From NCBI GenBank assembly GCA_021292105.1, contig CM037874.1:25532583-25596582 (forward strand): a stretch of 64,000 nt of DNA, in the 5' to 3' direction. Position numbers and translations under genes: made by a program. This document shows positions 30,687 to 64,000 of this stretch, one piece after another (positions within the stretch are counted from its first letter, which is position 1; each line of letters begins with the position of its first letter). This DNA comes from Anadara kagoshimensis (taxonomy: Eukaryota > Mollusca > Bivalvia > Arcoida > Arcidae). Under the pieces are notes generated by a model. That model searched no databases. It was not told the DNA's origin and was given only the letters and a program-made list of their open reading frames with translations.

Positions 30687-30768
30687 TATAAAAGTGCAGG
30701 TATAAAAGTACCACGATTTTCTCAGTACTTCATACTTTGTCATAAGCATCGATACGACATAAGTACAT
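30687..30768 (+). promoter_or_regulatory. K1 core promoter and non-coding first exon
   Basis: Two TATA boxes, TATAAAAG at 30,687-30,694 and TATAAAAG at 30,701-30,708, precede an initiator-like TCAGTA at about 30,722. The transcript would start near 30,730 and the exon ends at 30,768 with ACAT/GTAAGTA. The layout matches the promoters of K2, K3, K4 and K5. The start site is inferred from spacing. Confidence 0.65.
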
Positions 30769-30803
30769 GTAAGTATATTTTTAGATATAATATACACTTC
30801 TTG

Positions 30804-31130
30804 TACAGACCCGTCAAAAGTTTATCACTGATCATGAGCGCACAGACCCGTCGAAAGTTTATCACTGATCATGAGCGCACAGACCCGTCGAAAGTTTATC
30901 ACTGATCATGAGCGCACAGACCCGTCGAAAGTTTATCACTGATCATGAGCGCACAGACCCGTCGAAAGTTTATCACTGATCATGAGCGCACAGACCCGTC
31001 GAAAGTGTATCACTGATCATGAGCGCACAGACCCGTCGAAAGTTTATTACTGATCATGAGCGCACAGACCTGTCGAAAGTTTATCACTGATCATGAGCGT
31101 ACAGACCCGGAGAAAGTCTATCACTGAACT
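30804..31130 (+). repeat. Tandem array, 37-bp unit, about nine copies
   Basis: Units of 'CACAGACCCGTCGAAAGTTT' plus ATCACTGATCATGAGCG start every 37 bp from 30,804 to 31,100. The first and last units are the most diverged. The unit is the terminal sequence of the GACCTGTCGAAAG MITE, whose body follows directly. The array begins 36 bp after the K1 first-exon donor, so it sits in K1 intron 1. Confidence 0.95.
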
Positions 31131-31291
31131 AACGAATCGATGCCAAATCGGCAGTTCATCTCACGATCGGACCTCGTTAGTTAAATCTCGTCAGGTTGAC
31201 GGACACTTGCGATCCATATTTTAGGAAATCGACGGCTGTGCATCGGGTCACTATCTTCAGTTCGTGTTAAACTTTCGATAGGTCTGTACTG
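30804..31291. mobile_element. MITE with GACCTGTCGAAAGTTTAAC inverted ends, copy c (expanded left end)
   Basis: The right end reads 'GTTAAACTTTCGATAGGTCTG'. The left end has been amplified into the 37-bp array. Internal parts (ACTAACGAATCGATGCC) match copies a, b and d. Confidence 0.7.
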
Positions 31292-31669
31292 TTTAGTTAA
31301 TGAAAAAATATTTGAGGAAAAGACTTCCATTTGTAGCCACTACCTATATATTAATACATGTTTTAGTCGGGAAAAATTCCTTGAAAACTTCAGAACTGAG
31401 TTATTTTAAACATTTCAATATAAAAAATCAAAACTTATACGCGGTAGGGTACATGTACAAAAGACAATAATTTATTGTACATTCCTAATATTTAAAGGAA
31501 TTGAATAATTTCCTTTGTTTTATACTTTGTAGTAAATACGTATTTTTGCATGCTTGGATACCGATAAAATCACGTAATCCATATAACCAACCGCAAGTGT
31601 TTAAGATCTGAAAATGGATAGGATTCGAAAAAAGTTAGTACTGATTTTTGCTAAATTCATATTTTGATA

Positions 31670-31735
31670 GACAAATCACAATCCCAAAGGAAAGTAAAAA
31701 CACTGACACTGACAAATTAGGTTAAACATGCGCCG
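31670..31735 (+). repeat. R1 fragment in K1 intron 1
   Basis: 'CAAATCACAATCCCAAAGGAAAGTAAAAAC' and 'GACAAATTAGGTTAAACA' match the first part of R1. Confidence 0.65.
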
Positions 31736-31768
31736 GTGCTTTAGAATAAACACAACCATGCATTGTAC

Positions 31769-31985
31769 AGCGTAAGTTGAGCGACTGTTCTATCGAACGT
31801 TTAACACTGAGCTAACAAGTTGGTGCCAAGTCAACAACTCGTTTTGTCCTCTCCTTAGCAATATCTCGATAGCTTTTCTAAAACAGCTATATATCTCTAG
31901 GTACTTTTTTGGCTACCACTGATCCCTTTTTTGGGCCATTCGACAGTGTTTTTTTTAAACTTTCGACATTTCATATCAGTACTGA
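31769..31985. mobile_element. MITE with GACCTGTCGAAAGTTTAAC inverted ends, copy d
   Basis: Left end 'CTGTTCTATCGAACGTTTAACACTG', right end 'TTTAAACTTTCGACATTTC'. It sits just before the acceptor of K1 exon 2. Confidence 0.6.
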
Positions 31986-32048
31986 TTATTGTCATCGTCA
32001 AAGTGATTATCTGTTTGTTTTCACCTATGTCTTGTTTCAGATTTCAAA

Positions 32049-33840
32049 ATGAAGGCTGTTATCTTAGTATTTGTACTGTTGGTTACTGTCAACATGTCTG
32101 CCGCTGTATCGCCACCAAAACCACTGTGCGCATGCGCAATGATCCACAAACCCGTATGTGCCGTAAAGACTTATCCAAATGCTTGTAGTGCCAAGTGCGA
32201 GTAAGTTTTGTAATTACATACTATTTAACTTAAAAACAAATACAAATAATATATACACATTTTTCAAAGAGATGAACTAGTGAGATAGATATACAGTTCA
32301 ACCTGCCTCGAAGATCACCTCTATATAAGGATCACCAGCTTATAAAGGCCAGTAAAATTGTGTTCCAATTGTTCTTTATTCATATTTTTAACCTGTATAT
32401 AAGGACCACCTGGCCATAAAGACCGCTTCTACTGGTTCCCTTAGGTGGCCTCTATAGACAGGTTTGACTGTATTATGTGTCGCTTCCTAATATTAGTTAC
32501 ATAATATAATTTTAAGCATTTATAGTACAAAAAAATTATCAACGGTTAAATTATTATATTTTATATTCACAATTATATTGATCCTAAATCAGATGATCGC
32601 GATTATTTAAAATAAAGTACCACCCAAACAACGGAACAAAGTATGTGACGTTACTTTCAACGCCAGTGTCTGAATAATGTTTTTACGTTACACTCATTGC
32701 TATTATTTGACATGGCATGAATTTTTTCATGCCTCTCTGTCCTGGACTGTACTGGATATATCTAACGTCCCATAGTTCCATGTTCCTTTCACATAATTTT
32801 AATTACACACATGGCGGGTATAGCTAGCTAAACAGGAGGAACTTACCCTTCCTGAACACCCGGCTTCACTTCCCTGGTGGGTGTTCACGTGTCTAACCTA
32901 ACTTGTCAGTTTCAAAGTTACTTCGCTCCTGGATTTTGATTCGGACATTATTAAGTATGGTTTTTTATGTCATTTCTCGCAATCGCAGTAAAATATTTCG
33001 TAGAGTTAAAGAATTATATGTGGTAGCTGTAGCATGCTTATATTGATTTCAGGTTCTTTATTCAAATGTCAAATGTGTTAAGATATTAAATATGTAAATT
33101 ACATTTTATTTTCAGAGGAGCACGAGTTGTTGAGAACAAACCATGCAAACAACCAAGATCTTTGATTGATGACGAGGTACTTGTGTTAATGTTTGATTTA
33201 TTTGTTTGGTAATGTAGCTAGTTAAGCAGTAGGTGCTTAACCTTCTAGAACACACGGTCTTACTTCAATGGTGGAAGTTTACCTTAAATGCCAGTTTTAA
33301 GTTTCATTTTGGTTTTGGACTGTGATAAGGACCTGAAATGTTATCTGTGGTTTTGATTGGTTGTATTTTAAAGTATAAATATGATACGACTTTTGTATAT
33401 ACAATGACCGATTAGGTACCATCTCCATTTAAACCCGAGATGTAACGATTTTTAACGATCGCTACTCGAACCATTTTCGAAGCATTTTTGAGATTTTTAT
33501 GGTTTTATCTTTAAGTATTTTACAATTGTCACTTAGTTTTACCACGCTATTTTACATTAAATGAACACACAGATCGCCCAGAACGTATTTACAACAATTG
33601 CAATAATTTTTTTTTTAATAGTGTCTTCTCATAATATATGGGCTGGGCTAAATTATGATAATCTATAGTATCGAAGTTTATCACGATTATTTTTTGTTTT
33701 GGCTGCTCTGTTCATTACCAAGTAGATGCTTTTGATCTAGTCTACTTGAACTGTTTCTGATTCGGAAGTTCCATGCTTTACAAATACTAACAGTATCATT
33801 ATTTGTTTATTTACAGGATGTTGAAAAAGATGACGAATGA
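32049..33840 (+). CDS. K1: secreted Kazal-like cysteine-rich peptide
   Basis: Coding exons 32,049-32,200, 33,116-33,176 and 33,817-33,840 join to 78 residues. The ATG lies 8 bp into exon 2 (TTTCAG/ATTTCAAAATG). Residues 1-19 form a signal peptide (MKAVILVFVLLVTVNMSAA). After a VSPPKP linker comes CACAMIHKPVCAVKTYPNAC, then SAKC, and the sixth Cys in exon 3 (ENKPC). The PVC...TYxNxC...C order is the Kazal signature, but the C3-TY gap is two residues shorter than usual and C1-x-C2 is very tight. By the standard Kazal rule the reactive-site P1 residue is Met31. The tail is strongly acidic (LIDDEDVEKDDE). Introns hold MITEs and R1 copies. AATAAA lies at 33,935. It is transcribed away from the other five family members. 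Inhibitory activity is inferred, not shown. Confidence 0.85.
32294..32470. mobile_element. Mariner-like MITE with TA target duplication, in K1 intron 2
   Basis: Starts CAGTTCAACCTGCCTCGAAG and ends 'ATAGACAGGTTTGACTG', with TA on both sides (32,292-32,293 and 32,471-32,472). Internal 'ATAAAGGCC' and 'GGTGGCCTCTATA' blocks match the second copy at 43,583-43,756. TA duplication suggests mobilisation by a Tc1/mariner-type transposase (inference). Confidence 0.75.
32705..32960 (-). repeat. R1 copy in K1 intron 2
   Basis: Read on the minus strand it begins at 'CCATACTTAATAATGTCCGAATC' and ends near 'GTTAGATATATCCAGTACAG'. It carries CACGTG at 32,888-32,893 but not the second one. A further fragment lies at 33,205-33,350. 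Confidence 0.75.
33205..33350 (-). repeat. R1 fragment in K1 intron 3
   Basis: 'GTAGCTAGTTAAGCAGTAGGTGCTTAACC' and 'TTCAATGGTGGAAG' match the central part of R1 in reverse orientation. Starts 29 bp after the exon 3 donor. Confidence 0.6.
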
Positions 33841-33934
33841 AATTTTCGGTTCCTCGATTTTATTATATCTTGAAATAGAAAAAAAATATAACAAATACAT
33901 TTCCTTGTTTTCTCTTTTATATACATATACAACT

Positions 33935-33940
33935 AATAAA
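33935..33940 (+). terminator. K1 polyadenylation signal
   Basis: AATAAA about 95 bp after the K1 stop codon. Confidence 0.65.
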
Positions 33941-34980
33941 TATATAAACAAGGCTGTAAACCGCTACTAACATATTGCAACGTCGACAGTGATGATTTTG
34001 GTGTTCTGCAAGTTTACATACATGTATTGACATCAAATGGCTGTTATAAAAAGCAAAATAACACGGCAACTGATGTATTAAATGAAAAAAGAAAAGAGAA
34101 ATTTTCCCCCATAATATTTCAATTTACACTCGTGAATGGTGTAGGAAGGTAAACGAGTTTGGAGGTGATTACCCCTCGGGAGCAACAACTATTGTATCCA
34201 TAACCAGTAATAATTCTTTTCATATCGTCAGCGGCGGTTGTTTTGACTTTATAACATCGGTCCATGACTTAGATTTTCCTTAAATATTTTGGACATTTTT
34301 GATGTATTTTAACTTTAAATTAAATTCGACAAAGCAGGGATATAGCTGTCTAAATCTATATAAGGATTTGCATTCCTTAGTATCTTTACTACGAATTTTA
34401 ATTCGCCAGAATATCGGCTTAGAACAATCTTAGTTAAAAATGATTGCGATATTTGAACCATCGAATTTGCGTTTCTTAAAAGCATTTACAATGTCATTAA
34501 AATACAAAAGTTAAGATTGTCTGGATCATTCATTATTCATCATCTTTTTAGTAAAACCTTCAGAAATGACAACCTGCACTGAAAATAGTCGATCGAAACT
34601 GACATTTGATTGAATGCTTCAGATTGCAGATGTCATGTACCATTTTTTTTAAAAAATTAATCATAAAATACATTATTATATTGAAATGGTATATGACAAA
34701 AAAAATAGGTATATGACACAGCCATAGGACATATAAGAGTAACAACCAGCAACATCAAACTCACTTTAATGACATCAATGGGAGCATTATGCGTTTGATA
34801 GTTTGCTTGAGTAGGTAATATTCGTAAGTTCCCAGTTATCAATTAGTCAAAGAACCCGACCTCACTTTCCTGGTGGAAGTTCACGTGTTTATTAATTAGA
34901 TTTTGTTAGTTTCAAAGATTTTACTTTGATTTTTGATCGTGATTTGGACATGGATTAGTATGTTTGTTTTTGATTATATC
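33941..34980. other. Intergenic stretch between the convergent K1 and K2 genes
   Basis: No gene seen. It holds a TATACCATTTTTT hairpin at 34,623-34,718 and a reverse R1 copy at about 34,850-34,975. Frames on the minus strand at 34,560-34,842 are not supported. Confidence 0.55.
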
Positions 34981-35349
34981 AATTTCAATTGTACTTTCCA
35001 GTGAATTATTTTTACTTATATTGAGACATCACCAGTAATAATGTACTAATATACAGTCGTCGGAAGTATCTTGTGACTATCATTTTCTAAATAGAACATA
35101 AAACTGCTTTTAAGCAATGAGTCTATCATTTCTAAATGTTGTGCGGCAAATCAATAATCATTTACTAATGTTAAGTCTTTGGGCAGACAGTTTGGATCGA
35201 TTACCAAGCCAAGAACAAAGTGATCATTGAGGCAACAGGGTTAACCTATTCGTATAAAAAACGGGTGGATTTAACCATCCAGATAGTGCAATAGTGGATG
35301 AAATGTAAACAAGATAAACGATAATAACGCTATTTATAGTATGTAGTGT

Positions 35350-35355
35350 TTTATT
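35350..35355 (-). terminator. K2 polyadenylation signal
   Basis: TTTATT on the plus strand, AATAAA on the transcribed strand, about 50 bp after the K2 stop codon. The flanking sequence 'TTTTATTTCAATTTG' is shared with K3 and, in part, K4. Confidence 0.7.
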
Positions 35356-35404
35356 TCAATTTGAAATAATACTTTACAGAAATACAATACTGTAGCTTTG
35401 AATC

Positions 35405-36712
35405 TTAACCTGTAAAAGAAAAGAAAAAGTTTAAAAATGGGATAAATACATAGGGATAATTTTCGATACTTAATGAAAACTCAATCAATTAATATATGAA
35501 AAAAACATTTACTTAGATTTTCTTGCAAAAATATTTACTAGTATTAGAAAGTTTATTATGCATCTCAGCTTATTTAAATTGTACAATACCTACGGAAGGA
35601 GGTGGTAGATTCATACTGACACTTAAAAGTTAACAATCAATAACACAATAATACTGTATGATCCAAACCAATATCTACACGGTCCTAACAAGTGCATAAT
35701 TAGGGCAAAAAAAGCCAATTACTTTATTTAGTTTATCAAAACCACAACTTTTCAAACAAAAGTAATCGCTGATATTTTGTAAATTTTGAACACGATTGTT
35801 TTACTACTTATATCTGGGCATTGCTTAATTAATCACATATGCAGTTATGTTTTGTTTTGTAAAAATATGGTTAAGTGGTCATAAATACACTAATATCCCC
35901 CGAACGAGTAAATATGTATTGAATATGTTCAGCATGTATAAAACCTCAGTAGTAAAGCTTAATATATATATAAATACAAGTTGTACTCACCTCGATGTTT
36001 ACAGCCACGTTTGTCATCAGTTATACGAGCATTCCTAAATATAAATTTTAGTATAAATGAAAATATTCTATAAAATAGAGAAATGTGCCTGTATTGGAAC
36101 TAGGCTTCACACTTGGCTGTTTTACCAAGTATATCTACCATTGATTTGGATAACGGTCGGGTCGGTATATTCCTGTTTGGTAATTAAATTACAAAATTAC
36201 TTTTTCAAAAATCAAAATAATCAAACTATGAAACCAATGATAATTTTTACATGGCACGATATATCTTTTGTTGAGAACAAATAAAGATCTCAAATATCAA
36301 AAACACTTTGAAATATAGTTAATTTGATTTTTCAGGGGTTTTTTCTTGCAAAACACCGGTTAACGTGTTGGAGCCATAATTTTGAGTCTGTACAGAATGA
36401 CATCATCATAGACAGCACAACCATCATCACTGCCCTTGTGGCCGTTATGGTCGTTGAAATGATATGCTCATATAAAGATATATTGTTTCAGATCTATAGT
36501 CATATTTTTCCATACTTATCTGGTTAGCTATATGTATATGTATTATTATTTAAAAGTCAAATAGCATGCACTTACTTGCATCTAGCCTCACATGCATTAC
36601 TGAATGTTGCCATAGCACAAACTGGTCGATAGATCCTAGGGCATGCGCATAGTTTGGCTGTAGTCACGCTAACAGCCAATAACAGAACGAAAATCAAAAC
36701 TACACCTTTCAT
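35405..36712 (-). CDS. K2: secreted Kazal-like peptide with basic tail
   Basis: Coding exons 36,712-36,576, 36,034-35,991 and 35,409-35,405 give 61 residues. The signal peptide is MKGVVLIFVLLLAVSVTTA. The mature peptide is about 42 residues with six cysteines: LCACPRIYRPVCAMATFSNAC, EARC and RGC. It keeps the Kazal PVC...TFxNxC...C order with a shortened C3-T gap. The inferred P1 residue is Arg26, which would suit trypsin-like proteases and is unique in this cluster. The 44-bp exon 3 encodes a Lys/Arg-rich tail ending RGCKHRG. The last coding exon holds only one split codon and the stop. A hairpin repeat lies in intron 1. Its mature charge is clearly positive, so an antimicrobial role is also conceivable. 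Confidence 0.85.
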
Positions 36713-36776
36713 CTTGAATGCTGAAAATATAAATCATAAATATATTATATTAGTTGTTTTAGAATTTCAATTTAGG

Positions 36777-37364: not shown

Positions 37365-37420
37365 CTGTCGCTGTGAATCTGATAAAACACTGAAATGTTG
37401 CATGACTTTGTCATTTTATA
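37365..37420 (-). promoter_or_regulatory. K2 core promoter and non-coding first exon
   Basis: On the minus strand a TATA box (TATAAAA, 37,420-37,414) within ATAAGTATAAAATG precedes a short exon ending 'AGATTCACAGCGACAG/GTAAGT' at 37,365. The start of transcription is inferred at about 37,390. Confidence 0.65.
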
Positions 37421-41820: not shown

Positions 41821-43526
41821 TCAACCTGTAAATGAAAATAGAAGAAAATAAAAGTGACAAATTTAAAATAACAACGGACAATCCTCGTTATTACTGAAAG
41901 AAAAAAATGATGATATTAATTTTTACTAAAAGTACTTAAAACAAATTAAAAAATTGCTTAATGTTCATCATGTTCATATGGCATATTGAAAAAAGGAACA
42001 GTTTCATAAACAAATATAAAGCAGAAAGATTGTATTTATGTATTTTTTTATTAGGCATTGTCTCAATATATATTAGGCGCGCTTTCAAGTACACATTTAT
42101 TTTTAATACTTTTATTATTTTGGCATCCAACATATATACAATTATAGTGGCATTTCATCTAAGCAAATAGTATAACAATAAATATAATACAATGTTAATT
42201 AATATTGTTGAATTGTTTATATGTGTGTGAGAGAGAGAGAGAGAGGGAGAGAGAGAGAGAGAACACATACTTATTCCTTTTTAACGATGTTACAAATATT
42301 AAAAAATTGTCACGAAAACCTAAATTTGGACTAAAAGAGACAAAACGTATTCACCATCGATAAAACATCAATAATAAAGTTTTATAACAGAAGCATAAGA
42401 TGTACCAACCTCTATGTCTGCAGCCACGACGTCTGTTAATAATACGAGCATTTCTAAAATATAAAACATTATAGTATAAACAAAATAAAATATAAAATTT
42501 GGATAAACAATCAGTATTTTAAAATCATATTATTTTCTGACCATAGATGATGCTTACTTAAACTCTATATCTGCTGATGTTAATTAATGTTTTGTGAAAG
42601 CCCGATTGCTATGAATCAGATAAATAAATATATTTTAACAATTTAAAAAATGTGAAACATTCTTATATAAGATAAGTGAAATTTGAGGTGTCATTCTTCT
42701 TCGAAACTCACGCTTCATGACCAATTTCCATTGCAGACATTTATAACGGCTTTTTGTATTTCTACAATTTGGTATTAAGTTGTGGGAAGAAATAAAGTAA
42801 GTATCGCTTAGTACACATTATACGTAACACCATTATATTATTACTGCATTCGACGTTGTTGAATTAATACTCCGAGTAAATGGTTGTTTTTGCTTTACAT
42901 GTGTATATCGATTATTGTGCCTCAACACAACGTTACATGTTACCTTACAATGATAAGTCATACGTATATGTATTGATATTTGGTTGCAGTACTTTAAAAT
43001 CATTTTTGAAAAGCATTATTTCTTATTATAAATGTGCATATGGAAACATCATAATAATATAGCATATGTGCATAAAAATAACGATTTTCAAAAGTTTTTA
43101 CACTTTTATCTTTAAATACATCTATCATTGCTACTACTACTTATACTATCAATTCTTTCTACCAGCATTGGGATTGACTTACCTAGTGATTGAGCCCTGC
43201 TCAAACTCAATGTCTAGTCCATCAGTATTATGTACTAGAATTACAGCGTTTTATGGAATTGCCTAGCTTATAGAAGTTTTTTAGCGATCTACTAATGTTA
43301 CAAACTGCACATAAAAATACAATTGAAATTAATTCATATACACATGATATATGTTGGTTTTTTTTAAATTCAGACTATTTACTTACTGACATCTAGCCGC
43401 ACATGCATTGCTGAATGTTGACACTGCACAGACTGGTTGGTAGTTCATGGGGCATGCGCATGGTTGTTGAGCTGTAGTCACGTTAACAGCCAACAACAGA
43501 ACAAAAATCAAAACTATTCCTCTCAT
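41821..43526 (-). CDS. K3: secreted Kazal-like peptide with arginine-rich tail
   Basis: Coding exons 43,526-43,387, 42,453-42,410 and 41,825-41,821 give 62 residues. Leader MRGIVLIFVLLLAVNVTTA, then QQPCACPMNYQPVCAVSTF, SNACAARC, and a tail RIINRRRGCRHRG from the 44-bp exon 3. It has six cysteines in the Kazal-like order. The inferred P1 residue is Met27. The exon 3 donor is GTTGGT, weaker than the GTGAGT of K2. The tail is the most arginine-rich of the family. Closest paralogue of K2, by leader and exon sizes, and clearly from the same duplication. Function as protease inhibitor, antimicrobial peptide or both is open. Confidence 0.85.
42226..42262 (+). repeat. (GA)n microsatellite in K3 intron 3
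   Basis: TGTGTGA followed by an interrupted GA run, similar in layout to 30,408-30,464. Confidence 0.9.
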
Positions 43527-43582
43527 TTTGAATGCTAATTGAAAATCACATAAGTAGTGTCAGTTATTTCATCTTAAAATTA

Positions 43583-44056: not shown

Positions 44057-44115
44057 CGGTTGTTGTGAGTCTGATTAAACCTTAAAAAATCTTCATAATG
44101 TTTTGTTCTTTTATA
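44057..44115 (-). promoter_or_regulatory. K3 core promoter and non-coding first exon
   Basis: TATAAAA at 44,115-44,109 on the minus strand, in ATAAGTATAAAAG. The exon ends 'CAGACTCACAACAACCG/GTAAGT' at 44,057. Same layout as K2, K4 and K5. Confidence 0.65.
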
Positions 44116-46049: not shown

Positions 46050-47813
46050 TTAACCTGTAAAAGAAAATAAAAGGTCTCATGTAATAAATGTATAAACAAG
46101 CAAGTATAAATGTAATTACTTTATATATTTTAATCCATTTTAATTATAATAAAAACAAACGTACTAATCCATGTCCGAATCACAATCCAGAAGCAAAGTA
46201 AAAACTTTGGAACTGACAAGTTAGGTTAGACACGTGAACTTCCACCAGGGAAGTGAGTCCGGGTGCTCCGGAAGGATAAGCACCTCCTGTTTAACTAGCT
46301 ACACCCGCCACGTGTGTAATCAAAATTGTGTGAAAGGAACATGGAAATATGAGACGTCAAATATATCCAGGGCAATCCTGGAAACAGAGACATACATTTA
46401 GATAATAAAGTTACGATATCAATTTCAAATACAGAAAAAACGTCAATATTTCAATTCTATGAAAAAATTAGATGTGATGATTATAATTTAAACCCATGAC
46501 AATATAAATTTGTAAATTTATTTTTGGAGGGCAAAGTATACTATTTCACAAGCACAGGTCAAAGTTTCCGGATTCTTAACTCTAATCTGGCAACTTTTGA
46601 CAAGTTTTTATAGCAGAGCAAATGAAAAGTTTTAACTTAATTGAAATGTAGATGTAATAAGCTTAGAATGATTCTCATAATGCTAATCATTAATATCTTA
46701 ACGAAACAAAATTATTCAGCTTTCAAATTTACCAGATGTAATTTAATGAAAATCTATGCTGAGGAATAAATACGAAACCAGGGTCTGATGATTGTTCAAA
46801 CCTTAAGTTGTTTATTACATTTATATACATGTTCATTTATGCGTACCTTAGCCAGGGTAGTAATTATATCTATGTCTACAGTCACGTGTGCTGTCGACAA
46901 TAAGACCATTTCTAAAACAAAACAACTCTTATAGAAGGTATTCTAAAAATAATTTATAAACATAAATAACTAATTGTAAATACAATGTAAATGAAATGTA
47001 TTGGGACTTCCAACATAACTATGAACGCATCTAGATAGTGTGTTTCCATTAAACCCTATGCCTGCTGTTGTAGAAAATTTATGTCTTGTTTGCTTTTTCA
47101 GCGTGCTCTTTATTGCACGAGTTGATACATGATTAACTACAAACGTGTTTCATTGTAAATATCATGTTCAATAACATGTATGTGCATAGTAAATTTGATT
47201 TAAATTACAATAAAATATCTTGTCTTTAATTTTTATACCTTTTTCTGAAATCTGTTTGTTTATGGCTATTTTTTCTTACTTCTTACCTGCAGTAAAAGTC
47301 ATGTAATGGCGTATGTCATACAACAAAATTACATATAACACTCGTGATTTCGTATTGCAGTATTATGCTTACTAACATTTAAATCATCTTAACTTTTAAA
47401 ATGCATCCAATAAAGTGATTTCAGTGCATCATAAATATTTTACAATCAATGAACGCAAGATGAACAAGGCAATTCTTTACATTGTATATAAAACTTATAT
47501 GTGCATTTCTCATATTATGAAACAAGAGACACGTATTAATTGAGATCGCTTTGCCTTGGCAAATAATTATAATTATTATTACTATTGAATGCCTTACATG
47601 AGTAAATAAAACAAGACTATATTTTGAATGTGGTTAAAAAACAATAAATAAATAATGCATTCACTGACATCTAGCCATGCATGCATTACTGAATGTAGCT
47701 TGTGCACTTACCGACTGGTAGTTCATAGGGCAAATGCAATGTCTATTTCCTGTGGTCATGGAAACAGCAACCAACAAACCAAAAACTAAAAAATGATTCC
47801 TTCATATAAAATA
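46050..47813 (-). pseudogene. K4: broken Kazal-like peptide gene of the K2/K3 type
   Basis: All exons are recognisable (47,813-47,665; about 46,911-46,868; 46,054 down to the final stop at 46,050) but several are damaged. A one-base insertion near codon 7-9 shifts the leader frame and leads to a stop after about 20 codons. In the original frame the third cysteine is replaced (PVC became SVS). The exon 2 donor has weakened to GTGAAT, and the exon 3 donor GT is gone (CATAGA/TATA). The Kazal core remains readable (HCICPMNYQ, TFSNACMARC), and exon 3 still encodes DCRHR. Its TATA box and first exon (49,009-49,066) look intact, so a non-coding transcript is possible. AATAAA is at 46,002-45,997. Confidence 0.85.
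46150..46400 (+). repeat. R1 dispersed repeat, representative copy (in the K4 locus)
   Basis: Order of blocks: AATCCATGTCCGAATCACAA, AAAGTAAAAACTTTGGAACT, GGTTAGACACGTGAACTTCC, GGTGCTCCGGAAGG, AGCACCTCCTGTTTAACTAG, CGCCACGTGTGTAATC, GGAACATGGAA, GACGTCAAATATATCCAGGG. About 250 bp, non-coding, with two CACGTG hexamers. Some copies extend to 500-800 bp. More than 25 copies occur on both strands in this window. Confidence 0.85.
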
Positions 47814-48260: not shown

Positions 48261-49008
48261 TGACTATCGTCCGTCGTAAAGCGTGATACTGCCTACATGT
48301 TGGTTAGTAATTGATTTGTACTACCAACTTTTTTAGAGTGGTGAGACGTCTTAGGTTTGATAGCTAACGCTTTGACCACTGAAACTACAAAAGCTTTATT
48401 TATGAACATATTGTAAATATAAATATCTTAATAATTTTCCAAGTTATACCATTAGACTTAATTTGCTAACAAGCACTGATTCCACAAATGCATAAATCGT
48501 ATGACTTAATAGACAGAGAAAGTCAGATCATTGCAAAATATATATAAATATATCAAATTAATAATTGTATAAAACTCTGATGATAAACGGCATCGAATAT
48601 TAATGGTAGTATTTCCAATTGAGCCTAAATTGGTTCTTTAACTTTTGTATAACTATACCAGAACACATGTCATCTAATTATAGTGCACGATTCTTCTATA
48701 TTAAATCAAAAACAAAAATACCAATCCATGTCCGAATCACAATCCATAATCAAAGTAAAAATTTGAAACTTATTATGACAAACTCAGTAGGCAATAATTG
48801 TGTATTATTGTCAGAAATATACTGTTGTATTAATTTGCTGCCAATTAAAATCTAAATTTCCTCAAAAATTAAGGTATACTCTCACATGCAAAGTATTTCA
48901 TAAGCTTTATTTGATATTAGTCTACTGATGTGTATATGTGTTCCTCTGCAATTTATAGTCAAGTAAAATTTATGTAAATCTGCAGAGGGTATATGTAAAT
49001 GTACTTAC

Positions 49009-49066
49009 CAGTTGCTTCGAGTCTCATGAAACATGTTCATATTTCATAACGCACCTATCTTTTATA
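49009..49066 (-). promoter_or_regulatory. K4 core promoter and non-coding first exon
   Basis: TATAAAA at 49,066-49,060 on the minus strand (GGGTATAAAAGATAGG). The exon ends 'GAGACTCGAAGCAACTG/GTAAGT' at 49,009. It appears intact although the gene body is broken. Confidence 0.6.
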
Positions 49067-49740: not shown

Positions 49741-50780
49741 GTTATTATCATTTACAACATCCTGTCATTCAGTTTAGACAACAAGCGACTGTTTCAGTAA
49801 TGTTGGGACAAAACTTAATAAAAGTGTCATGAGGTATCAATATATTCGAAAATTTGAATTTGTAATGGAATATTAAAATAAAAAAAATTGCTGCTCACAA
49901 AATAATTGTTGACTCAATTGTACAGCAAGCCTACACTTATCAAGACGTCAAAGAAACCCTCAAACTCGTAACAGTTTTGTTGAAGAATGAGACGTCTTTG
50001 TCAAAAATAATCTATGATATAATTGGCCCCTTCAATCTTCATTTCTGACTTTCGTCAGTGTATGAATAACGGAATTTGCCAGTTTTCATATTTTTACTTT
50101 GCTGCTTAGACAGGGAATCTGGAAAATTTGTTTTTGATATACAATTTAATAAAAGCTCAAAGTAAGAGATATAAGGACAATGTCTAATATGATTATTTAT
50201 AATGTTTACGTAACTAAGCCTGGTCTTAAACATTTTACTGATTTTACATGTATTAAGTAAACGAGCAATTGGGAATATGAACATAATAAGCAAATACTCA
50301 CAGAAGAAGGTAAAATTGAAATGTAAGACTTTGAACTCTAGATTAAATCGCTTGGGACAATAACAAAAAAGGTTTATGCCTTTAAATAACTTTTATGGCA
50401 TTAGATTCATTAAATACAAAATTTTATATGAAATGTAAAGGGGGCATTGTTGAAACGAATGTACAAGGCTATTTATTATATACATAAATATTAACAGAAT
50501 TTTTCATTTTCGAAGTGTTAGTTATTAATGGTAATTCCAAAATATAATACCTTCTTGGAGTTCCTAATATTTTTTTTTCTTTAACTTTTATTGTTTCTTT
50601 CGGCTATTGTTTAATAAATGTTCTCAAATTAAAATTCTCTTGTGCCTAGTTTAGTATCCACGCCTGTTTTTTATATATGTTAGTGTTTAATATTGATAAA
50701 ATAAATGATATTGTTTTTAAAAGCCGTAAATTGTCAATTATAACGATGTACATGTTTGTAGTCGGTAAATATATTTAAAA
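49741..50780. other. Gene-free stretch
   Basis: AT-rich with no supported gene, RNA or clear repeat apart from a weak R1-like motif near 50,080-50,125. Confidence 0.5.
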
Positions 50781-50781
50781 A

Positions 50782-51395
50782 AACATACTAATCCATGTCC
50801 GAATCAAAATCCAGAAGCAAAGTAAAAACTTTGGAACTGACAAGTTAGGTTAGACACGTGAACTTCTACCACGGTAGTGATGCTGGGTGCTCCGGAAGGG
50901 TTAGTACCTCCTATTTAGCTAGCTACATCCGCCACGTATGCAATGAAAATTGTATTAAATGAACATGGAGATATGGGATGTCAAATTTACCCAGGGCAGT
51001 CCTGGATACAAAGACATCAAACTTATCAACAATACTGTGATGACGAAACGGCCGAAACTTTTTCAGGGTCTTGATAAGCCTAGGCGTGCAATATCCCTGA
51101 GTTAACAATTTAATTACAAGCGGATTATATATATAAAATTTCATAAAACCTTTAATCATTGTATCCTCTTCCAATATACACTGATTGACAACGCCGGTTC
51201 AACCTTAGAGCTCTACGAAGGTGTAGGATAGAATAAATTAAAACTTATTAAATAGGAGTATAAAACTTCTCTACAGTACATTATCAAACTTTGGTGGTTC
51301 TTTACGAGATTAACCTAATATGTCAGATCTAAGTTTTTATTTGGCTTTGGAATTATGATTCGAACATGGATTATTATGTTTTTTATAATTTGTTT
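50782..51395. repeat. R1 copies between K4 and K5
   Basis: A long plus-strand copy at 50,782-51,140 includes the extension 'CAAACTTATCAACAATACTGTGATGACG' and 'AATATCCCTGAGTTAACAATTTA'. A short reverse fragment lies at 51,310-51,395. Confidence 0.75.
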
Positions 51396-52469: not shown

Positions 52470-53941
52470 TTATCCATCTTCCACAAAATCCTGAAAATAA
52501 AGAAAATAATAATAGGGTTAACCTGATTTTATTTTCTATACATTTAATAGCATTTGAGAGAATTTTAATTTAAAACATTGATTTGATGAAGGACATGTAT
52601 GGTAAATCACTGTTTTTGCTTCAATGCATTAAATACTTCAGGAAAATTCTGGCTAATCCATGCCTATTTGCTATTTTTCAAAGAGATTTAGGTGTATTGT
52701 CCTATTAATAGACAATCAATCAATATAATATGCAATTTATCACTTTAATTAATTAATAAATAAATATATAACATCTCCAATGTTCAGCAATGCTACATTG
52801 AAAAGTGTAAAATTTCTCATGTTTGTATGTAAAGCAAATCCTTAATGATCCTTAAAGTCGCCTTAAAATTTCAGTTCAATTAAGGATCTTTTAAGATGTC
52901 CTTAAATACACCATCTAATGAGGCTTTAAGATCCATAAAGGTGACTTTTTTTCTTATGTACCAAACCCATGATTGGCACCATTAGGCCGATACTTTATAT
53001 TTACAACATTTACTTCATTTGATTAAAACTTATTTATTTATATTGCCTATTTTATATTTTAAGGATCTTAAGTATATTATTAATACCTTGCCATCTTTGA
53101 TGTTTCATGGTTAAGCTGGTACTATGCATGGATGTTTGCCGGTCACGCGAGCTCCACTAAAACATTGAAAAAGTTAATTAGTTTTTGCAAAAACGTTTGA
53201 CATCATTTTCGACATCGTTTTTCGCCACATAATACACTTTATACATAATGAAAAACAAACTTTATACTTAAATTATAACCCTGTTTATTAAAAAATAGAA
53301 CGGACTGCCGACTTGTCCGGGACCACCGTGTATGCGTGCATGAAGCAAAACATTTCGCAAAAAATACGTTCGGGCGGGCAACGGGCAAGTTGATGTACCT
53401 GATAAATTTCGGTGAGAAATATTGACCTACAATATATATATAATACATAAATTGATGACAAGCGTCTGAAGATGGTGTGAAAGCGCTAATGCTTTACAAA
53501 ATCGCGTTAAATAATTTCTATACATATATATAGTAACAATGTACAATTTAAATTGCTACTATGTTATTATTTCAATAGGTATTTTGATTTTGCAGAACAA
53601 GACAACCGTGTTAAAATAAAATCAATCAGTAGTGTAATTTCAATAATTAATCATATAATAGTTTTAGGAATTCGTTTGCATTAACCAATGTTCAGGGACA
53701 AACTGTCAATTGTAAAAACAAAAATAAACTAAATAACATCTCAAGGTAAAACATTACTAATGAATACTTACAGAATACAAATTTATACTTACTCGCATTT
53801 GGCAGAACAAGCGTTGGAATAGGTTTTGGCACCACAAACTGGCCTGTAGTCCATAGTGCATTTGCAGTTAGGTGGAGGTACTGCAACAGACATGTTGACA
53901 GTAACAAGAAGGACAGTGAAAACCAAAAGAACAGTCTTCAT
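52470..53941 (-). CDS. K5: secreted Kazal-like peptide, clearest Kazal signature
   Basis: Coding exons 53,941-53,793, 53,156-53,123 and 52,490-52,470 give 67 residues. Leader MKTVLLVFTVLLVTVNMSVA, proline linker VPPP, then CKCTMDYRPVCGAKTYSNAC, SAKC, and a short exon with GARVTGKHPC. CT-x-[DE]-YRPVCG...TY-x-N-x-C is the textbook Kazal reactive-site loop. Met30 is the inferred P1 residue. Between C3 and TY there are three residues (GAK) where classic Kazal domains have five. Exon 3 is 34 bp, against 61 bp in K1, because its donor (ATA/GTACCA) lies earlier; if this donor is skipped the frame ends after VPA. The last exon DFVEDG is short and acidic. Closest to K1. Confidence 0.85.
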
Positions 53942-54639
53942 TTTTAATCTGAAAATGAGATAATTGAAAACAATGTTATAATGTATTGTTTACTCTTCTG
54001 CATTGTATGTAAATATGTATTTTCTGAAATACAAATCAATTAAACTGTTATGGGTAAAGAGACAATAATTAAAGTTCCAAATTCCTGTCAAGGTCAGACG
54101 TTTTTGAATCTGGGTCAAATATGTTTTAGTTTATTTTCTTTTGATAATAAGTTATGTTATCTATTGGAATATCCGTTTAACGTAATGATTTGCAAAACAT
54201 GTACGTTATGCAATCCTATGATGTCCTGTCCGGTTACCAATTATTGAGACAACTGTGTAAAACCCTCATTAACGAGGGCATATTATTAAATTATCATACA
54301 ACTATGGTAAATGAAATCTCTTGAATTAGAAATAATATCAGTCGGGCTGTTCTCTCCAAACTTCCCATTTCCTTATCCTTTAACAATGTCATTTAAATTC
54401 TGTATAGTTATTTTTGAAAAAAGTGAAACTTGAATTGAAAAAATCCACCATTTGTTACTGAATTAGTTATTTGTTTAAAGTACATTACTGTAATTTTATT
54501 TTATTTATTTATTTACACATTTTATGTTTGTATTTTGGACATCGATTGTCTTAAAGTATTACTTCAGCAACAACATGATCCTGCTTATTTATGAAAAATA
54601 AGTTTTTGGTCGATTTCTTAAAACCATAACACCAAAAAC

Positions 54640-54826: not shown

Positions 54827-54883
54827 CTGATGTTGCGAGTCTGATGAAACACGTAACTGTTGCATAATGTTTCGTTTTTTATA
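54827..54883 (-). promoter_or_regulatory. K5 core promoter and non-coding first exon
   Basis: TATAAAA at 54,883-54,877 on the minus strand (AAAGTATAAAAAACG). The exon ends 'CATCAGACTCGCAACATCAG/GTAAGT' at 54,827. TTTCAT(C/G)AGACTCG is shared with K4. Confidence 0.65.
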
Positions 54884-56439: not shown

Positions 56440-57100
56440 GATATATAAAAAATCCAAACATACTAATCCATGTCCGAATCAAAATCCATAAGCAAAGTAA
56501 AAACTTTGGAACTGACAAGTTAGGTTAGACACGTGTGAAGTGAGCCCGGGTGCGCCAGAAGGGTTAACACCTCCTGTTTAGCTAGCTACATCCGTCACGT
56601 GTGAATTTAAAATTATGTGAAAGGAACATGGAACTATGGGACGTCAAATATATCCAGGTCAATCCTGGACACAGAGACATCAAACTTATCAACAATGCTG
56701 GTTGCAATATCCCTGATTCAACAATTTATTTGAAAGCAGCCTACTTCGTTGTACAAAGTCCCTGTAGTGGGAACAAGGTCTAAAATAGCGTATTAATTGA
56801 AATACAAATACACCAAAAGCAGGAGAAGCAGGTATATTGCTGCATAGAAAAGGAAAGCTAACAATTGAAAAATTCAAGTCATCACGTTTGTCATAAAGTT
56901 AATTATCTAATGTTCCATAGTTTCATGTTTCTTTGAATATTTTTTTTAATTTTATACACATAGCGATAGACGGTGATTAGCCTTCCAGAGCACACGGCCT
57001 CAGTTCCTTGGTGAAAGTTCACGTGTTTAACATTAATTGAGTTTCAAAGTGTTTACCTCGATATAGGAATTTGATTTTTATATGGATTAGTACTTTAATT
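56440..57100. repeat. R1 copies, plus and minus strand
   Basis: A plus-strand copy at 56,440-56,780 is followed by the block GCAGGTATATTGCTGCATAG (also seen near 12,120) and a reverse copy at about 56,900-57,095. Together they form a loose inverted pair. Confidence 0.75.
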
Positions 57101-58740: not shown

Positions 58741-58744
58741 TTTC

Positions 58745-58787
58745 CAAAATAAAATTAAAAATAAATAAATAAATAAAAAAAAAAAAA

Positions 58788-58842
<55 letters not shown>

Positions 58843-59004: not shown

Positions 59005-59052
<48 letters not shown>

Positions 59053-59130
59053 ATACTATAATGCAACCTTGCATCAATCATTATTCAATTACATTGTTGG
59101 TACTTATTGGGTCAAGATTACTTTTCAGTC

Positions 59131-59165
<35 letters not shown>

Positions 59166-59170
59166 TTTTC
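58745..59170. repeat. Opposed AAAT and ATTT microsatellite arrays
   Basis: (AAAT)n at about 58,760-58,845 faces (ATTT)n at 58,998-59,050 and 59,131-59,167. Translations of these arrays give spurious frames rich in LFIY. Opposed arrays could pair to form a hairpin. Confidence 0.9.
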
Positions 59171-60542
59171 AGACGAAACACTTTAAGAAAATAAAATATA
59201 ATGTAGATACATTTATATGTATTACATATACTAAGTTTCATACTAGCACATGTATACATGTAGGTAATAGGGGAATGCCCCCTGGCTTGCAGACGGTACA
59301 CTTTCTTACCTCTAACCATAGAGAGTAATCAAGGGAGATAAAATTGTTAAACTCCCGTATTAAAAAAAAACAACATATCAACCCATGTCAAAACGATAAT
59401 AAGACAAGAAAACTAAAAAGACGTTCAACGAAATGCCAAATTGTATTTTATTCAATATTGTTAACGCTTTTACAATCCAGTTTTAGATTTAAAATAGAAT
59501 GGCGGTTCAGGGAACTATATCAATTAAACTGTTTTAAAATGGCGTTCAAGATCAATATATTTGTCAAACATTTGCATGACTATGCGCTATGCGCATTATT
59601 ATTTAGTTTGTCGTGAAAAGGTTTAGTATTCATATTGACTATGAACGTCATTTCAAAACAGTTAAGTTGTTATGTTTGATTTAAAATATTTTTAAAAGAA
59701 AATCTGGAGTTCATTTTGGGGGTTTATTTGCGTTCAATTCTGGGATTATATTTTCAAGGTTTTCGACAACGAAATTTAACGTGCAAGAGTCACACAAATG
59801 TTTACGGCATAATACGTACACTACGTGACGTAGTTTTACATTATGACATCTATATGTTGTAATTAGATACTTGTATTTAAAAAGAGAAACAGGCAAGGGA
59901 ATACAAGGCGAGTTAGCCGATGTTTATGGGTCTCATGTACTATCAAAGGCTAAGGTTGTAATTCAAACGCCCACTGGCGTGTTCAGGTACTAAGAATAGC
60001 ACAGATATTAGGCATTTCACATGGTAGTTTTATAAAATAAAATCTTACAAAATCGTTTTGGAATGCGCAAGCTAACACAACTATGGGGTTACTCATTCTC
60101 TTAGCGATGACATTCAACCAGAGTATCAGTATGCAACACCTTGTTGAATCGTTTCGGTTCAAAAGATAGTTTCATTTGCGGCTGGTGACTGTAGATGAGA
60201 TTTTGGCACGTTATTATGAGCCAGAAAACAAAGCTCGAAATTGTCAGCGGATAAATGCTATAATTTAAATAAGAAATTCATTATAGAATCGGGTAAAATA
60301 AAGTTGGGAATAATCATACTTCTAATACTACTTATACATTTTTCATAGCAAAACTTGTTGAATGTATATTATCTGGTCGCAATATATATGACTATGAAAT
60401 ATAAAGTGACTGTTAACCGTATCACAAACATATAGTTCCTTATTTAAGTACATTTTAATTAGCAACGTATCGATGTGTCACTATGACAAAATATGGTTAA
60501 AAACGTTGTCAGCAAGACTAAGGTGTGTTTCTTTTTATAAAT
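59171..60542. other. Gene-free stretch
   Basis: No supported gene or clear repeat. The short frames seen on both strands have no domain or splice context. Confidence 0.5.
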
Positions 60543-60551
60543 GGTACTGCG

Positions 60552-61029
60552 AGGCCGCGGTAGACAAAATAAGACGCCAGTCTACAATTCCCGTGTCTCT
60601 CACCGCTAAGTTGGAGTCCCGCTTAGACTACATGTGGGAAAGTTAATTTTCCTTGCAGTTGCAAGTAGCCTTTACTGGTTTACTCGGTGTCAGTATTATG
60701 TGACTGGGGGTGGTACCTTGTCTGCGACGTACTGACACCGTGAGCTAGCACCTTAAAGTCGATCTAAGTGCACGTCAGTACAAGACAGACCATAAAACAC
60801 TCGCACGTCACATGCATAGATGAAAAATTGCTGATGCGACATTAAGCAACATTCAACCAACCATCTAATCAAAGGTACTGCGTGCCATTTCTCTCTGAGA
60901 CCGTGAGCTAGCACTTTAGAGTCGCCCTGAGTGCACAATGGTACAAGACAGATCATAAAACACACTTGCACGTCACATGCAAACTTGAAAAATTGCTGAT
61001 GCGATGTTAAGCAACATTCAACCAACTAA
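60552..61029 (+). mobile_element. SINE B with duplicated 3' half
   Basis: The head GAGGCCGCGGTAGACAAAAT and GTTGGAGTCCCGC match SINE B of 9,438-9,836. The first tail ends 'GCAACATTCAACCAACC' near 60,866. After a copy of GGTACTGCG (60,874-60,882), a second tail from 'GACCGTGAGCTAGCAC' runs to 61,024 and is again followed by GGTACTGCG (61,030). The same 9-mer precedes the head at 60,543. The minus-strand frame is not a gene. Confidence 0.8.
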
Positions 61030-61099
61030 GGTACTGCGTGTCATTTCTTTTATTTGAAAAAAAGAAAACACTTTTAAATGTAATTGATTTTATTTATTT

Positions 61100-61131
61100 G
61101 AGATCATCAACTACTTAATCCATCAACCATC
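61100..61131 (-). other. Likely remnant of the last exon of K6 (untranslated)
   Basis: On the minus strand, TTTACAG/GATGGTTGATGG mirrors the last exons of K1 (GATGTTGAA) and K5 (GATTTTGTG). It would add only Asp-Gly before a stop. AATAAA follows at about 61,098-61,090. Because K6 exon 3 already has a stop, this would now be 3' untranslated sequence. Confidence 0.4.
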
Positions 61132-61559
61132 CTGTAAATAAATAAATAAACAAATAAATAAATAAAAAATATTAAAACTATTAAAATATTTTTCTTAGAA
61201 ATATTTGATTAGCACTTAATGTTAGTTAATACATTGTATTTAGTAGTAATCCATGCATAGATACATATAAATGTATCTACGAGTTTTTTCTTATTATCTT
61301 GTTGATTCGGTTTTACTTCATTTAAATCTTTTCTTTTAAAAAAAACATTAGGGTAAAACAATGACATTTGTCGATTTTAAAAACCCATTATAGCTTTTAA
61401 GTCTATATATTTTAAACAATAAATATAACAATATACACATTTCATAGCTTTATCTGAAAAAATCCAATGCTTTAAGACAATAATTACAATAATGTACCTG
61501 ATTCGCAATACTTACACCACATAAATGTATTTTAAAACACTTAGTTATACACATTTTTA

Positions 61560-61760
61560 TTGACGGATCGCCGGCTACGCCACAATGTTCCGACATGGTT
61601 GTTTACACGCAAAAGAATGAAAACTCGGCCCGAACTGTGCCGTTTTATGACGTCACTGAGACTAGTATGTCATCATAGAATTAGTTGCCGTGATGCTGCC
61701 ATTTGTACCGTAGTGGATGTCAGTGTCGGAACATATTATGTATGACTGGCGATACGTCAA
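61560..61760. mobile_element. MITE with TTGACG(G/T)ATCGCC inverted ends
   Basis: The left end TTGACGGATCGCCGGCTACG pairs with the right end 'ATACATAATA...GGCGATACGTCAA' over about 38 bp (also GTTCCGACA near each inner end). TTA flanks it on both sides. GC-rich compared with its surroundings. The open frame inside is not a gene. Confidence 0.75.
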
Positions 61761-62177
61761 TTATATATATTTAGTATATGCACTGCCCTCCATAAATAAC
61801 TTAACAATTTATATTTGTCATATACATTATATTTACATTTACATTATAACGATCTTACTAATTTTGTTCATACAATTATATTGTTGATTTTTTTCCTTTT
61901 ATTTCAAAGCGATATCTAAACTGAACTTTATGATCTAAATGTATGTAATAATATTATTTTTCTTTATACAAATTTTCTGAAATTTTGGGGGAAATGTAAA
62001 ACATTGGAAAAATTTTATTTTTTATGAGAACAAAACTATTATTATAGGTGTAAAGCACTTACCACTACCATAATGATGTTTTCAACAAAGAACTTTTGTG
62101 AAGATTTTGAGTCTGTTATGATAGGATCAGTTTTAAACGTGAATGATAACTTGTGTATGTATTGCAAAAATACATAC

Positions 62178-63841
62178 CTAACTTTCAGTGATGCTTCTTG
62201 GTTCTCTGCATGGGCGATCCTCCGCTACACGAGGTCCACTGAAAATAATTGAAATTAATTTGAAATAAATAATTTTTCAACAAGTATTGACATCATGCTT
62301 AAATAGATTGATTCTCATTAAATACCATAAAAAACAATTTTTAAAAATTGTAAAACCTAGAGATAAGACAGTCTTCAAATCACGCAGCTCTACATACAAA
62401 TGACGTTTTCTCTCTGTCGAATAGAAATAAAAGATACGACTGATTTCTCAAGTTTATATTTAGACTTATACTTCTATTATGAAGCCAACGAAAGGCTAAT
62501 TTGAAGTTGCATGACAAACTTAGTAAACTTAATTTGCTATTATACGCCCAAAATCCATTCACTCTCACTTTTTATTACACACGTAGCGGATGTAGCTAGC
62601 TTAACAGGAGATGCTCACTTCTTTAACCTTATATGTGAGTTTCAAAGTTTGCTTTTGAATTATCAAATGAATGGTAGAGAACATCCCCTTCGATAAATTA
62701 AATGTTATTGTAATCAAAAACAAACATACTAATCCATGTCCGAATCACAATCCAGAGGCAAAGTAAAAACTTTGGAACTAACAAGTTAGGTTAGACACGT
62801 GAACTTCCATCAGGGAAGTAAGGCAGGTTGCTCCGGAGGGGTAAGCACCTCCTGTTTAAATCATTCGAATTACCGAATGTTTTATCACCTGTTATCCGTA
62901 TTACCGTATTATCCGTAATAATATCTAGACAATTATTGTAGTTGTCGACTGTTTGTTTTTGGTTTTTCTTGACTAATTGCAAGATAAAACGCCATATAAA
63001 GACATAACATCATAATAAGTTGTGATCGAAAAGTACATAATTGAAAAAAAAAATGTTTGTAAAATAATCAAGACATTTTATATATTTATTCTCATATTAC
63101 TTACCCGTTGTATTTAAGTTCTAATTATAAATTCATGCCTATAAGTTAAACCTAAGCGTTTAAAACAAAAGAGCAATAATTGTAAGCCATCAAATTTTGT
63201 ATTTTTCGTCTTTTGAAAACTTTGAAAACGCGTATCGTCGAACATTATTTTTGGTTTTCCGAAGTAAAAGCAGATTAAGCAGTTTTATTCCGCAAATATC
63301 ACGTACATTTAAGGCTGAACGTGAACAAAATGCATGACTATAATGAAGCCAATCAATTTTAATTATCTTAAACTCTCCAATAGCAATTGTTTCAACAATT
63401 ATATATTTGTATATTTAAGAAGTAGAATCTCTCTATATATAGACGAAAAAATAATTGCTACATTATAGGAGAAACAGTTCTCAAATTTATGTCGCCAGTA
63501 TTGTAATGCTTATGGTTGATGCTCAATCTTGCGGTGAATATGATGTTATGATATGATAATGAAAAACACACATAAAACACATTATAACTTATTCACATAC
63601 AACGGCAATAGCTTCTTTAATATAAAGATATGTGAAGATGATATCCTGTCGACATTTCCCTATAGAATATTTTATGATTTTATACTTACTTGCACCGGGC
63701 GACGCAAGCAATAGAATAAGTTTTTACACCACACACTAGTCTTTGCTCCATTGTGCAGGCAACACAATTTTTTGGTGGAGCTATTGCAGCAGACATGTTG
63801 ACAGCAACACGTAAAACCAAAACTTTGATGACACTCGTCAT
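62178..63841 (-). CDS. K6: divergent Kazal-like peptide
   Basis: Coding exons 63,841-63,690 and 62,238-62,178 give 70 residues. The leader MTSVIKVLVLRVAVNMSAA has an Arg in its hydrophobic core, so secretion may be weaker. Then APPKNC, CTMEQRLVCGVKTYSIAC, VARC and, from exon 3, DRPCREPRSITES followed by TAG. C1 and C2 are separated by two residues, not one. PVCG is changed to LVCG and the conserved Asn of TY-x-N to Ile (TYSIAC). The inferred P1 residue is Met31. Compared with K1, an in-frame stop in exon 3 removes the acidic last exon. The first exon and promoter would lie beyond the window. It may be functional but is drifting. Confidence 0.75.
62400..62860. repeat. R1 copies in the K6 intron
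   Basis: A reverse, degraded extended copy at about 62,430-62,655 is followed by a plus-strand copy at 62,710-62,860 ('CATACTAATCCATGTCCGAATC', 'GACACGTGAACTTCCATCAGGG'). Confidence 0.75.
63104..63150 (-). other. First-exon-like remnant within the K6 intron
   Basis: On the plus strand 'ACTTACCCGTTGTATTTAAGTTCTAATTATAAA' resembles the donor side of the K2 and K3 first exons (ACTTACC(T/G)GT(C/T)G...GA(A/G)TCTGAT). No clear TATA box is present. It may be a relic of another gene copy. Confidence 0.25.
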
Positions 63842-63954
63842 TTTTTATCTGACAAACTAAAGAAATAAATTGTGCTTTAATACATTTGAAAACAATTTTA
63901 TAGCCGGCACCAATTTTATTATTAGGTAAAATGTCTCTAATTTGAATTACCCTG

Positions 63955-64000
63955 GATTTATTTGACGTCCCATAGTTCCACGTTTCCTTTTACTCTCAAT
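63955..64000 (-). repeat. R1 copy at the right window edge
   Basis: 'TTATTTGACGTCCCATAGTTCCACGTTTCC' is the R1 end in reverse orientation, cut off by the window. Confidence 0.7.

Follow-up and report, generated by a model that had tools for sequence, protein, structure and literature searches.

The stretch analysed here, a 64,000-nucleotide piece of contig CM037874.1 (C18) of Anadara kagoshimensis at C18:25532583-25596582 (the window), carries six related small genes, designated A to F. In this study, we found that these genes quite probably make up the left end of a tandem array whose members encode secreted Kazal inhibitors of the non-classical kind, each with a single domain and a cysteine plan resembling that of leech tryptase inhibitor (LDTI), as judged from their sequence.

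Six related genes in the window

A profile was built from the exon encoding the first five cysteines (C1-C5) of copies A, B, C, and E, and was run across all six frames of the window. Cores were located at 32127+ (A), 36649- (B), 43460- (C), 47738- (D), 53866- (E), and 63763- (F). The scores of A, B, C, and E (109.8-113.2) were high by construction, as the profile was built from them. Copies D and F, both absent from profile building, scored 84.5 and 72.2. The next-best match in the window scored 24.2, and the maximum in three shuffled windows was 28.25. Because D and F scored far above the shuffles, they support the reading given above. A matching exon with the sixth cysteine (C6) was found downstream of every copy (33116+, 36034-, 42453-, 46911-, 53156-, and 62238-). 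An earlier sequence-only reading had described six related genes, one of them dead. Both points were borne out. Four genes were recovered by construction and D and F by the profile scan, and D is considered dead because it has no in-frame start before its signal peptide and has lost C3 (PVC to SVS).

Each gene starts with a non-coding leader, followed by an exon that encodes the signal peptide together with C1-C5 and by another that supplies C6. The second exon follows an AG acceptor and, with the exceptions noted for D, contains a start codon, a hydrophobic signal-like stretch, and C1-C5, ending with two codon bases before the GT donor. A phase-2 GTAAGT donor follows C5 in all five intact window copies, which confirms the common exon plan proposed earlier. 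The common promoters proposed with it were confirmed in part. A TATA box and a similar short leader ending in GTAAGT were present upstream of B, C, D, and E, but the leader of A, which has a TATA box and a plausible donor, is unlike this motif, and that of F lies just outside the window. Since the upstream sequence of F ran off the window, F was absent from the blastn comparison of the copies. B and C show an apparent extra splice adding only glycine and a stop; it lies in a block whose sequence is conserved across these two genes and D. The peptides had been put at 61-78 residues, and our models range from 61 to 82. The longest, of 82 residues, comes from reading gene A through to its first stop; splicing at an inner donor could make this product shorter.

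The array beyond the window

The genome (1.115 Gb, 36 contigs) was searched with the C1-C5 exon of E. This search returned 23 matches, of which 21 were on C18 between 25,564,631 and 25,732,338 and two weak ones on contig C9. When the most divergent copy served as query, the only additional matches were D on C18 and one on C9 that was weak and broken. With the sequence read as far as C18 position 25,756,500, the array spans about 168 kb and contains 23 coding exons, 20 of them intact. The window thus holds only its left end, and the cluster runs another 136 kb rightward. The three broken exons are D, 25600111, and 25635382 (exons outside the window are named by their C18 position).

In every one of the 20 intact exons, C5 is followed by a phase-2 GT donor. 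All 20 also have their own ATG and a signal-like N terminus, so the peptides are probably secreted. A C6 exon was found for 19 of the 20, two of which share one weakly scoring C6 exon. No C6 exon was found within about 5 kb of 25677964, an F-type copy. A TATA box and a similar leader lie upstream of 17 of the 23 exons, although four of these 17 trained the motif.

A midpoint-rooted exon tree, computed from 164 bases per row, showed one deep split with support 97/93; of its 19 inner branches, 9 had weak support. One side (B, C, D, 25701493, 25714429, 25732061, and 25732264) goes with NARI-like or odd C6 exons, and the other (A, 25724266, 25692967, the E group, and the F group) with GARV-type C6 exons. 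Between C18:25586448 and 25683946, seven E-type and six F-type genes alternate strictly, with like copies 12-20 kb apart. This alternation suggests that a two-gene unit was itself tandemly duplicated.

Two further observations were made beyond the window. At C18:25731992-25733520, the loop exons 25732061 and 25732264 lie on either side of a 54-bp gap that resembles an intron; each encodes a signal peptide plus a loop, one with P1 Met and the other with P1 Asp. One putative TATA box upstream and one candidate C6 exon downstream would serve both. Since splicing in both exons gives a stop, the two may be mutually exclusive. At C18:25711610, a C6-type exon (NARMTGQHRLCKHKG) was seen, and no partner C1-C5 exon was found for it.

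Cysteine spacing

Spacing was examined with a loose pattern that permitted 6-12 residues between C3 and C4; two chance matches in the array region, 25711786 and 25551926 (an EGF domain), were removed before counting. Kazal cysteine order and the C2-x7-C3 loop were kept, with C1-C5 present in all 20 intact exons, and each of these had the spacing C2-x7-C3-x8-C4-x3-C5. The array therefore departs from the spacing usual in the family, C3-x10-C4. The same pattern found C3-x10-C4 in 19 of 19 exons from two 10-kb pieces of C9. Four Kazal exons on C18, 50-90 kb to the right of the array, also had C3-x10-C4; these were read one by one, as their C4-C5 spacing escapes the loose pattern. The 23 comparison exons are part only of this genome's Kazal exons.

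The distance from C3 to T-Y/F had been described as two residues short, and this was so in all five intact window copies. In the T-Y/F-x-N-x-C4 motif of the intact exons, T was present in 18/20, Y or F in 20/20, and N in 19/20. The C1-x-C2 spacing, also described earlier, held in four of the five intact window copies and failed in F, which has C1-xx-C2. Array-wide, C1-x-C2 was found in 15 of 20 intact exons and C1-xx-C2 in five F-type copies. C5 and C6 are separated by x10 in GARV-type copies and the 25732061/25732264 pair, and by x11 in NARI-type copies.

The C9 exons share the C1-x-C2 and C4-x3-C5 plan and, in 19 of 19 cases, the donor type (phase-2 GT) that follows C5. Of the ordinary relatives encountered, these exons are the nearest. 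Multi-domain genes are their apparent source because each opens with an apparent C6 of a preceding domain, whereas each array exon carries its own signal-like start.

In the inhibitor GmSPI-2, the first two strands comprise residues 12-14 and 19-20, according to an excerpt of its report (PMC4169406). We matched Cys13 of GmSPI-2 to C3 and Thr19-Tyr20 to the T-Y motif. With these strand positions, the two lost residues would fall in the turn that joins the first two strands, which has four residues (15-18). The fold and the reactive loop are probably kept despite this loss.

Assignment to the Kazal family

Among the five intact window copies, E exceeded the cut-off of Pfam Kazal_1 (24.4 bits against 21). 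A PDB search with a profile of five copies gave LDTI-C (5.3e-7) and LDTI (6.2e-7) as the best matches, followed by chain 1y1c of the Anemonia elastase inhibitor (AEI; 2.6e-6) and chain 1iy6 of silver pheasant ovomucoid domain 3 (OMSVP3; 6.9e-6). In all five alignments printed, of 38 PDB hits, a two-residue gap fell at the same place, within one residue. The Kazal membership claimed by the sequence-only reading was thus supported. Of the three features it called atypical, C3-x8-C4 is unusual and array-wide, but C1-x-C2 and the short C5-C6 distance are normal in LDTI. Since these two belong to a known pattern, an undescribed peptide family was too strong a claim. On these comparisons, the array is better described as a tandem-expanded, single-domain LDTI-like Kazal subtype with one uncommon structural trait.

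LDTI (LDTI-C, 2kmo; non-classical group II) resembles the array in C1-x-C2-x7-C3, the C4-x3-C5 helix motif, C5-x10-C6, T-Y, and a small single domain. It differs in having C3-x10-C4 instead of C3-x8-C4. We take P1 of LDTI to be Lys, whereas most array copies have Met there. OMSVP3 chain 1iy6, a variant with an added disulfide, has a loop like that of E (CTMEYRPLC vs CTMDYRPVC) with P1 Met, but is a classical Kazal domain with x10 between C3 and C4. AEI chain 1y1c, which may be the native or a changed form, also resembles E (CTMQYDPVC vs CTMDYRPVC) and has C1-x-C2, but again x10 between C3 and C4. An excerpt of PMC3082530 assigns AEI to group I and defines non-classical group II by a Cys-x-x-x-Cys helix motif. 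The corresponding C4-x3-C5 spacing was present in 20 of 20 intact exons, as spacing only, the helix being predicted.

Other small inhibitors were also compared. GmSPI-2 (PDB 4hgu/2m5x), an inhibitor of subtilisin and proteinase K, consists of one very short Kazal domain whose structure can be superposed on LDTI, as the PMC4169406 excerpt describes, but it has four cysteines only and keeps x10, from Cys13 to Cys24. The 34-residue centipede elastase inhibitor ShSPI is likewise a trimmed Kazal domain, with reported elastase activity, but was trimmed through loss of C3 and C6 and its turn is not shortened (excerpt of PMC6950245). The mollusc I84 inhibitors (cvSI-1, scSI-1 to -14) are small, secreted, encoded by three exons, and tandemly expanded in a bivalve, but they have twelve cysteines in another pattern and are not Kazal proteins, as far as an excerpt of PMC9198434 describes them. 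Family I84 was rejected on this cysteine number and pattern, against six cysteines in the array peptides. An EGF-like domain was also rejected, since PDB hits to EGF modules (E 0.02) were far weaker than the Kazal hits.

None of the five members matched an entry in NCBIfam, and no relative was confirmed among 63 candidate stretches from viral contigs. Of 23 candidates from bacterial and archaeal genomes, one was a frame in a Bacteroidia metagenome-assembled genome with a Kazal domain of C3-x10-C4 spacing. This frame (JAGYKL010000012.1, 911-1150) has a possible lipoprotein signal, an LDTI-like Kazal domain, and an extra cysteine.

Reactive loop and selection

The C2-C3 loop is the protease-binding loop of Kazal inhibitors. 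P1 Met favours elastase-, subtilisin- or chymotrypsin-like enzymes, and P1 Arg or Lys favours trypsin-like enzymes. In the 20 intact copies, P1 was Met in 14, Arg in 2, Ala in 2, Lys in 1, and Asp in 1. C2, C3, and P5' Val were invariant, and P4' Pro was present in 16 of the 20.

Coding constraint was estimated from the proportions of nonsynonymous (pN) and synonymous (pS) differences over codons C2-C5 of 12 hand-picked diverged copies. Pooled pN/pS was 0.34, with pN below pS in 66 of 66 pairs and pS at 0.77, near saturation. The diverged copies show coding constraint. In the E group, pN/pS was 0.27.

Proposed mode of action and alternatives

In the model suggested by these data, a mature peptide of about 40 residues would present a canonical loop, from P3 Cys2 to P6' Cys3, to a serine protease and would block it as a tight, substrate-like inhibitor. 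The common two-residue loss would shorten the beta-hairpin turn between C3 and the T-Y/F motif. Because an even-numbered loss can keep strand register, the reactive loop and the C4-x3-C5 helix could stay in place, as could the three disulfides, which in Kazal domains pair C1-C5, C2-C4, and C3-C6. P1 dictates the specificity of Kazal inhibitors, as stated in the excerpt of PMC3082530. Given this and the preferences named above, the P1 Met copies, whose loop is very like those of OMSVP3 and AEI, would be predicted to act on elastase-, subtilisin- or chymotrypsin-like targets, and the Arg and Lys copies on trypsin-like ones. Duplication followed by change at contact positions would have spread specificity. 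The peptides may guard tissue or mucus against digestive or microbial proteases.

Several observations weigh against this reading. Kazal_1 scores were below the cut-off for A, B, and C (17.2-19.9 bits), and F gave no hit. When the whole genome was searched with Kazal_1 (E 0.001; 150 of 265 candidates scored), 115 exons were listed, and no array exon was among them. In view of that absence, the array is, by its profile scores, a divergent Kazal member. Word matching in open-access papers, a weak negative, gave nothing recognisable as a C3-x8-C4 Kazal domain and none of known activity, and retained inhibition with a shortened turn is therefore an assumption. Of the 14 copies with P1 Met, 11 are duplicates of E or F type that arose recently. 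Variability at the contact positions P2-P3' exceeded that at the remaining non-Cys sites (1.62 vs 0.96 bits; 17 distinct cores; permutation p 0.027), which favours the reading, but this excess is modest and the permutation test ignores relatedness. The most variable single site (2.23 bits) lies in the shortened turn and not in the loop; an exposed turn would explain this. The F group has a pN/pS of 0.74, which is near neutral and comes from five copies with few changes. Its signal peptides contain lysine and arginine, its C1-C2 spacing is the longer one, and Leu replaces P4' Pro in 4 of 5. F-type copies look relaxed or decaying. Besides gene F, the array holds five more F-type copies, and one F-type copy is broken.

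Some of these points would also fit a Kazal scaffold that was kept while inhibition was lost, with the turn loss tolerated in a new role as antimicrobial, channel-binding or mineral-matrix peptides. The failure to find a measured activity for this spacing in that literature and the P1 Asp or Ala of 3 of the 20 copies are in its favour. So is a report, seen in excerpt, of Kazal-domain genes in extrapallial haemocytes of the hard clam with a possible biomineralization role (PMC8902148). We regard this explanation as unlikely, as the P3-P6' loop is conserved at the positions given above and variability at the contact positions exceeds, on average, that of the remaining non-Cys positions.

The near-neutral F group could instead suggest an array that is mostly non-functional, made of weakly transcribed, decaying tandem duplicates, and the 3 plainly broken exons of 23 and the missing C6 exon of 25677964 point the same way. 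Yet the frame is open and the five exon-2 cysteines are all present in 20 of the 23 exons, pN/pS is low in the diverged copies and the E group, and TATA boxes with similar leaders recur upstream, so that general decay is very improbable. The C9 exons raise the question of whether the array exons are parts of longer multi-domain Kazal proteins misread as single-domain genes, given their like C1-C5 layout and donor phase and their opening with a preceding C6. This is the least credible of the alternatives, and hardly to be expected when every intact array exon has its own start and signal-like N terminus and most C6 exons have a stop soon after C6.

For the inhibitor array favoured here, we raise more tentatively, and with somewhat more doubt than belief, that C3-x8-C4 marks an undescribed Kazal subtype in which a two-residue hairpin still supports the canonical loop. 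It would comprise about twenty diversifying 'warheads', including the one gene with interchangeable P1 Met and P1 Asp loop exons that give a stop when both are spliced in. If the peptides fold and inhibit, the full GSDG-type Kazal turn would be dispensable, and the array would offer a smaller six-cysteine scaffold with natural loop variants. It would also be a second bivalve case, beside I84, of protease inhibitors expanded through tandem duplication.

Feature coordinates and surrounding sequence

Table 1. Positions in the window of the features assigned to genes A to F.
Gene	Feature	Position	Strand	Remark
A	TATA box (30701-30707) and putative non-coding leader, GTAAGTA donor	30701..30768	+	Tentative: leader without match to common motif
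A	Exon 2: ATG at 32049, signal peptide, C1-C5, phase-2 donor, P1 Met	32041..32200	+	
A	Exon 3 with C6 (GARVVENKPC)	33116..33212	+	Read to first stop; internal GTACTT donor could shorten it
B	TATA box and non-coding leader, GTAAGT donor	37365..37420	-	
B	Exon 2: signal peptide and C1-C5, P1 Arg	36576..36720	-	
B	Exon 3 with C6 (NARITDDKRGCKHR), donor GTGAGT	35991..36034	-	
B	Exon 4 start: Gly completed and stop TAA, after long pyrimidine tract and CAG	35405..35409	-	Block conserved with C and D
C	TATA box and leader	44057..44115	-	
C	Exon 2: signal peptide and C1-C5, P1 Met	43387..43534	-	
C	Exon 3 with C6 (NARIINRRRGCRHR), weak donor GTTGGT	42410..42453	-	
C	Exon 4 start: Gly completed and stop TGA	41821..41825	-	Block conserved with B and D
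D (dead)	TATA box and leader, still recognisable	49008..49066	-	
D (dead)	Exon 2: signal peptide without preceding in-frame start, loss of C3, donor GTGAAT	47665..47813	-	
D (dead)	Exon 3 remnant (NGLIVDSTRDCRHR)	46850..46911	-	
E	TATA box and leader	54827..54883	-	
E	Exon 2: signal peptide and C1-C5, reactive loop CTMDYRPVC, P1 Met	53793..53948	-	Pfam Kazal_1 above cut-off
E	Exon 3 with C6 (GARVTGKHPCIVPA) and stop	53111..53156	-	
F	Exon 2: open frame, C1-xx-C2, charged residues in signal peptide, probably relaxed	63690..63848	-	
F	Exon 3 with C6 (GPRVAEDRPCREPRSITES) and stop	62178..62238	-	

The putative first intron of gene A contains a 37-bp minisatellite (window 30805-31127; 8.7 copies, 96% matches). 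A dispersed repeat of about 250 bp occurs between the Kazal genes in both orientations, at 30011-30251, 46153-46393, 50777-51017, 56440-56680, and 62718-62958, with additional inverted copies. To the left of the array, EGF-like exons and two VWA domains (Pfam VWA 6e-29 and 3.7e-16) lie on the + strand at window 19300-24826 and are perhaps one gene. A large inverted repeat with arms of about 5 kb (2029-7066 and 12710-17873), in blocks mostly 97-100% complementary, is perhaps a recent mobile element pair. Elsewhere in the genome, dense clusters of ordinary Kazal exons were seen on C9 at 43.37-43.47 Mb and 74.05-74.28 Mb.

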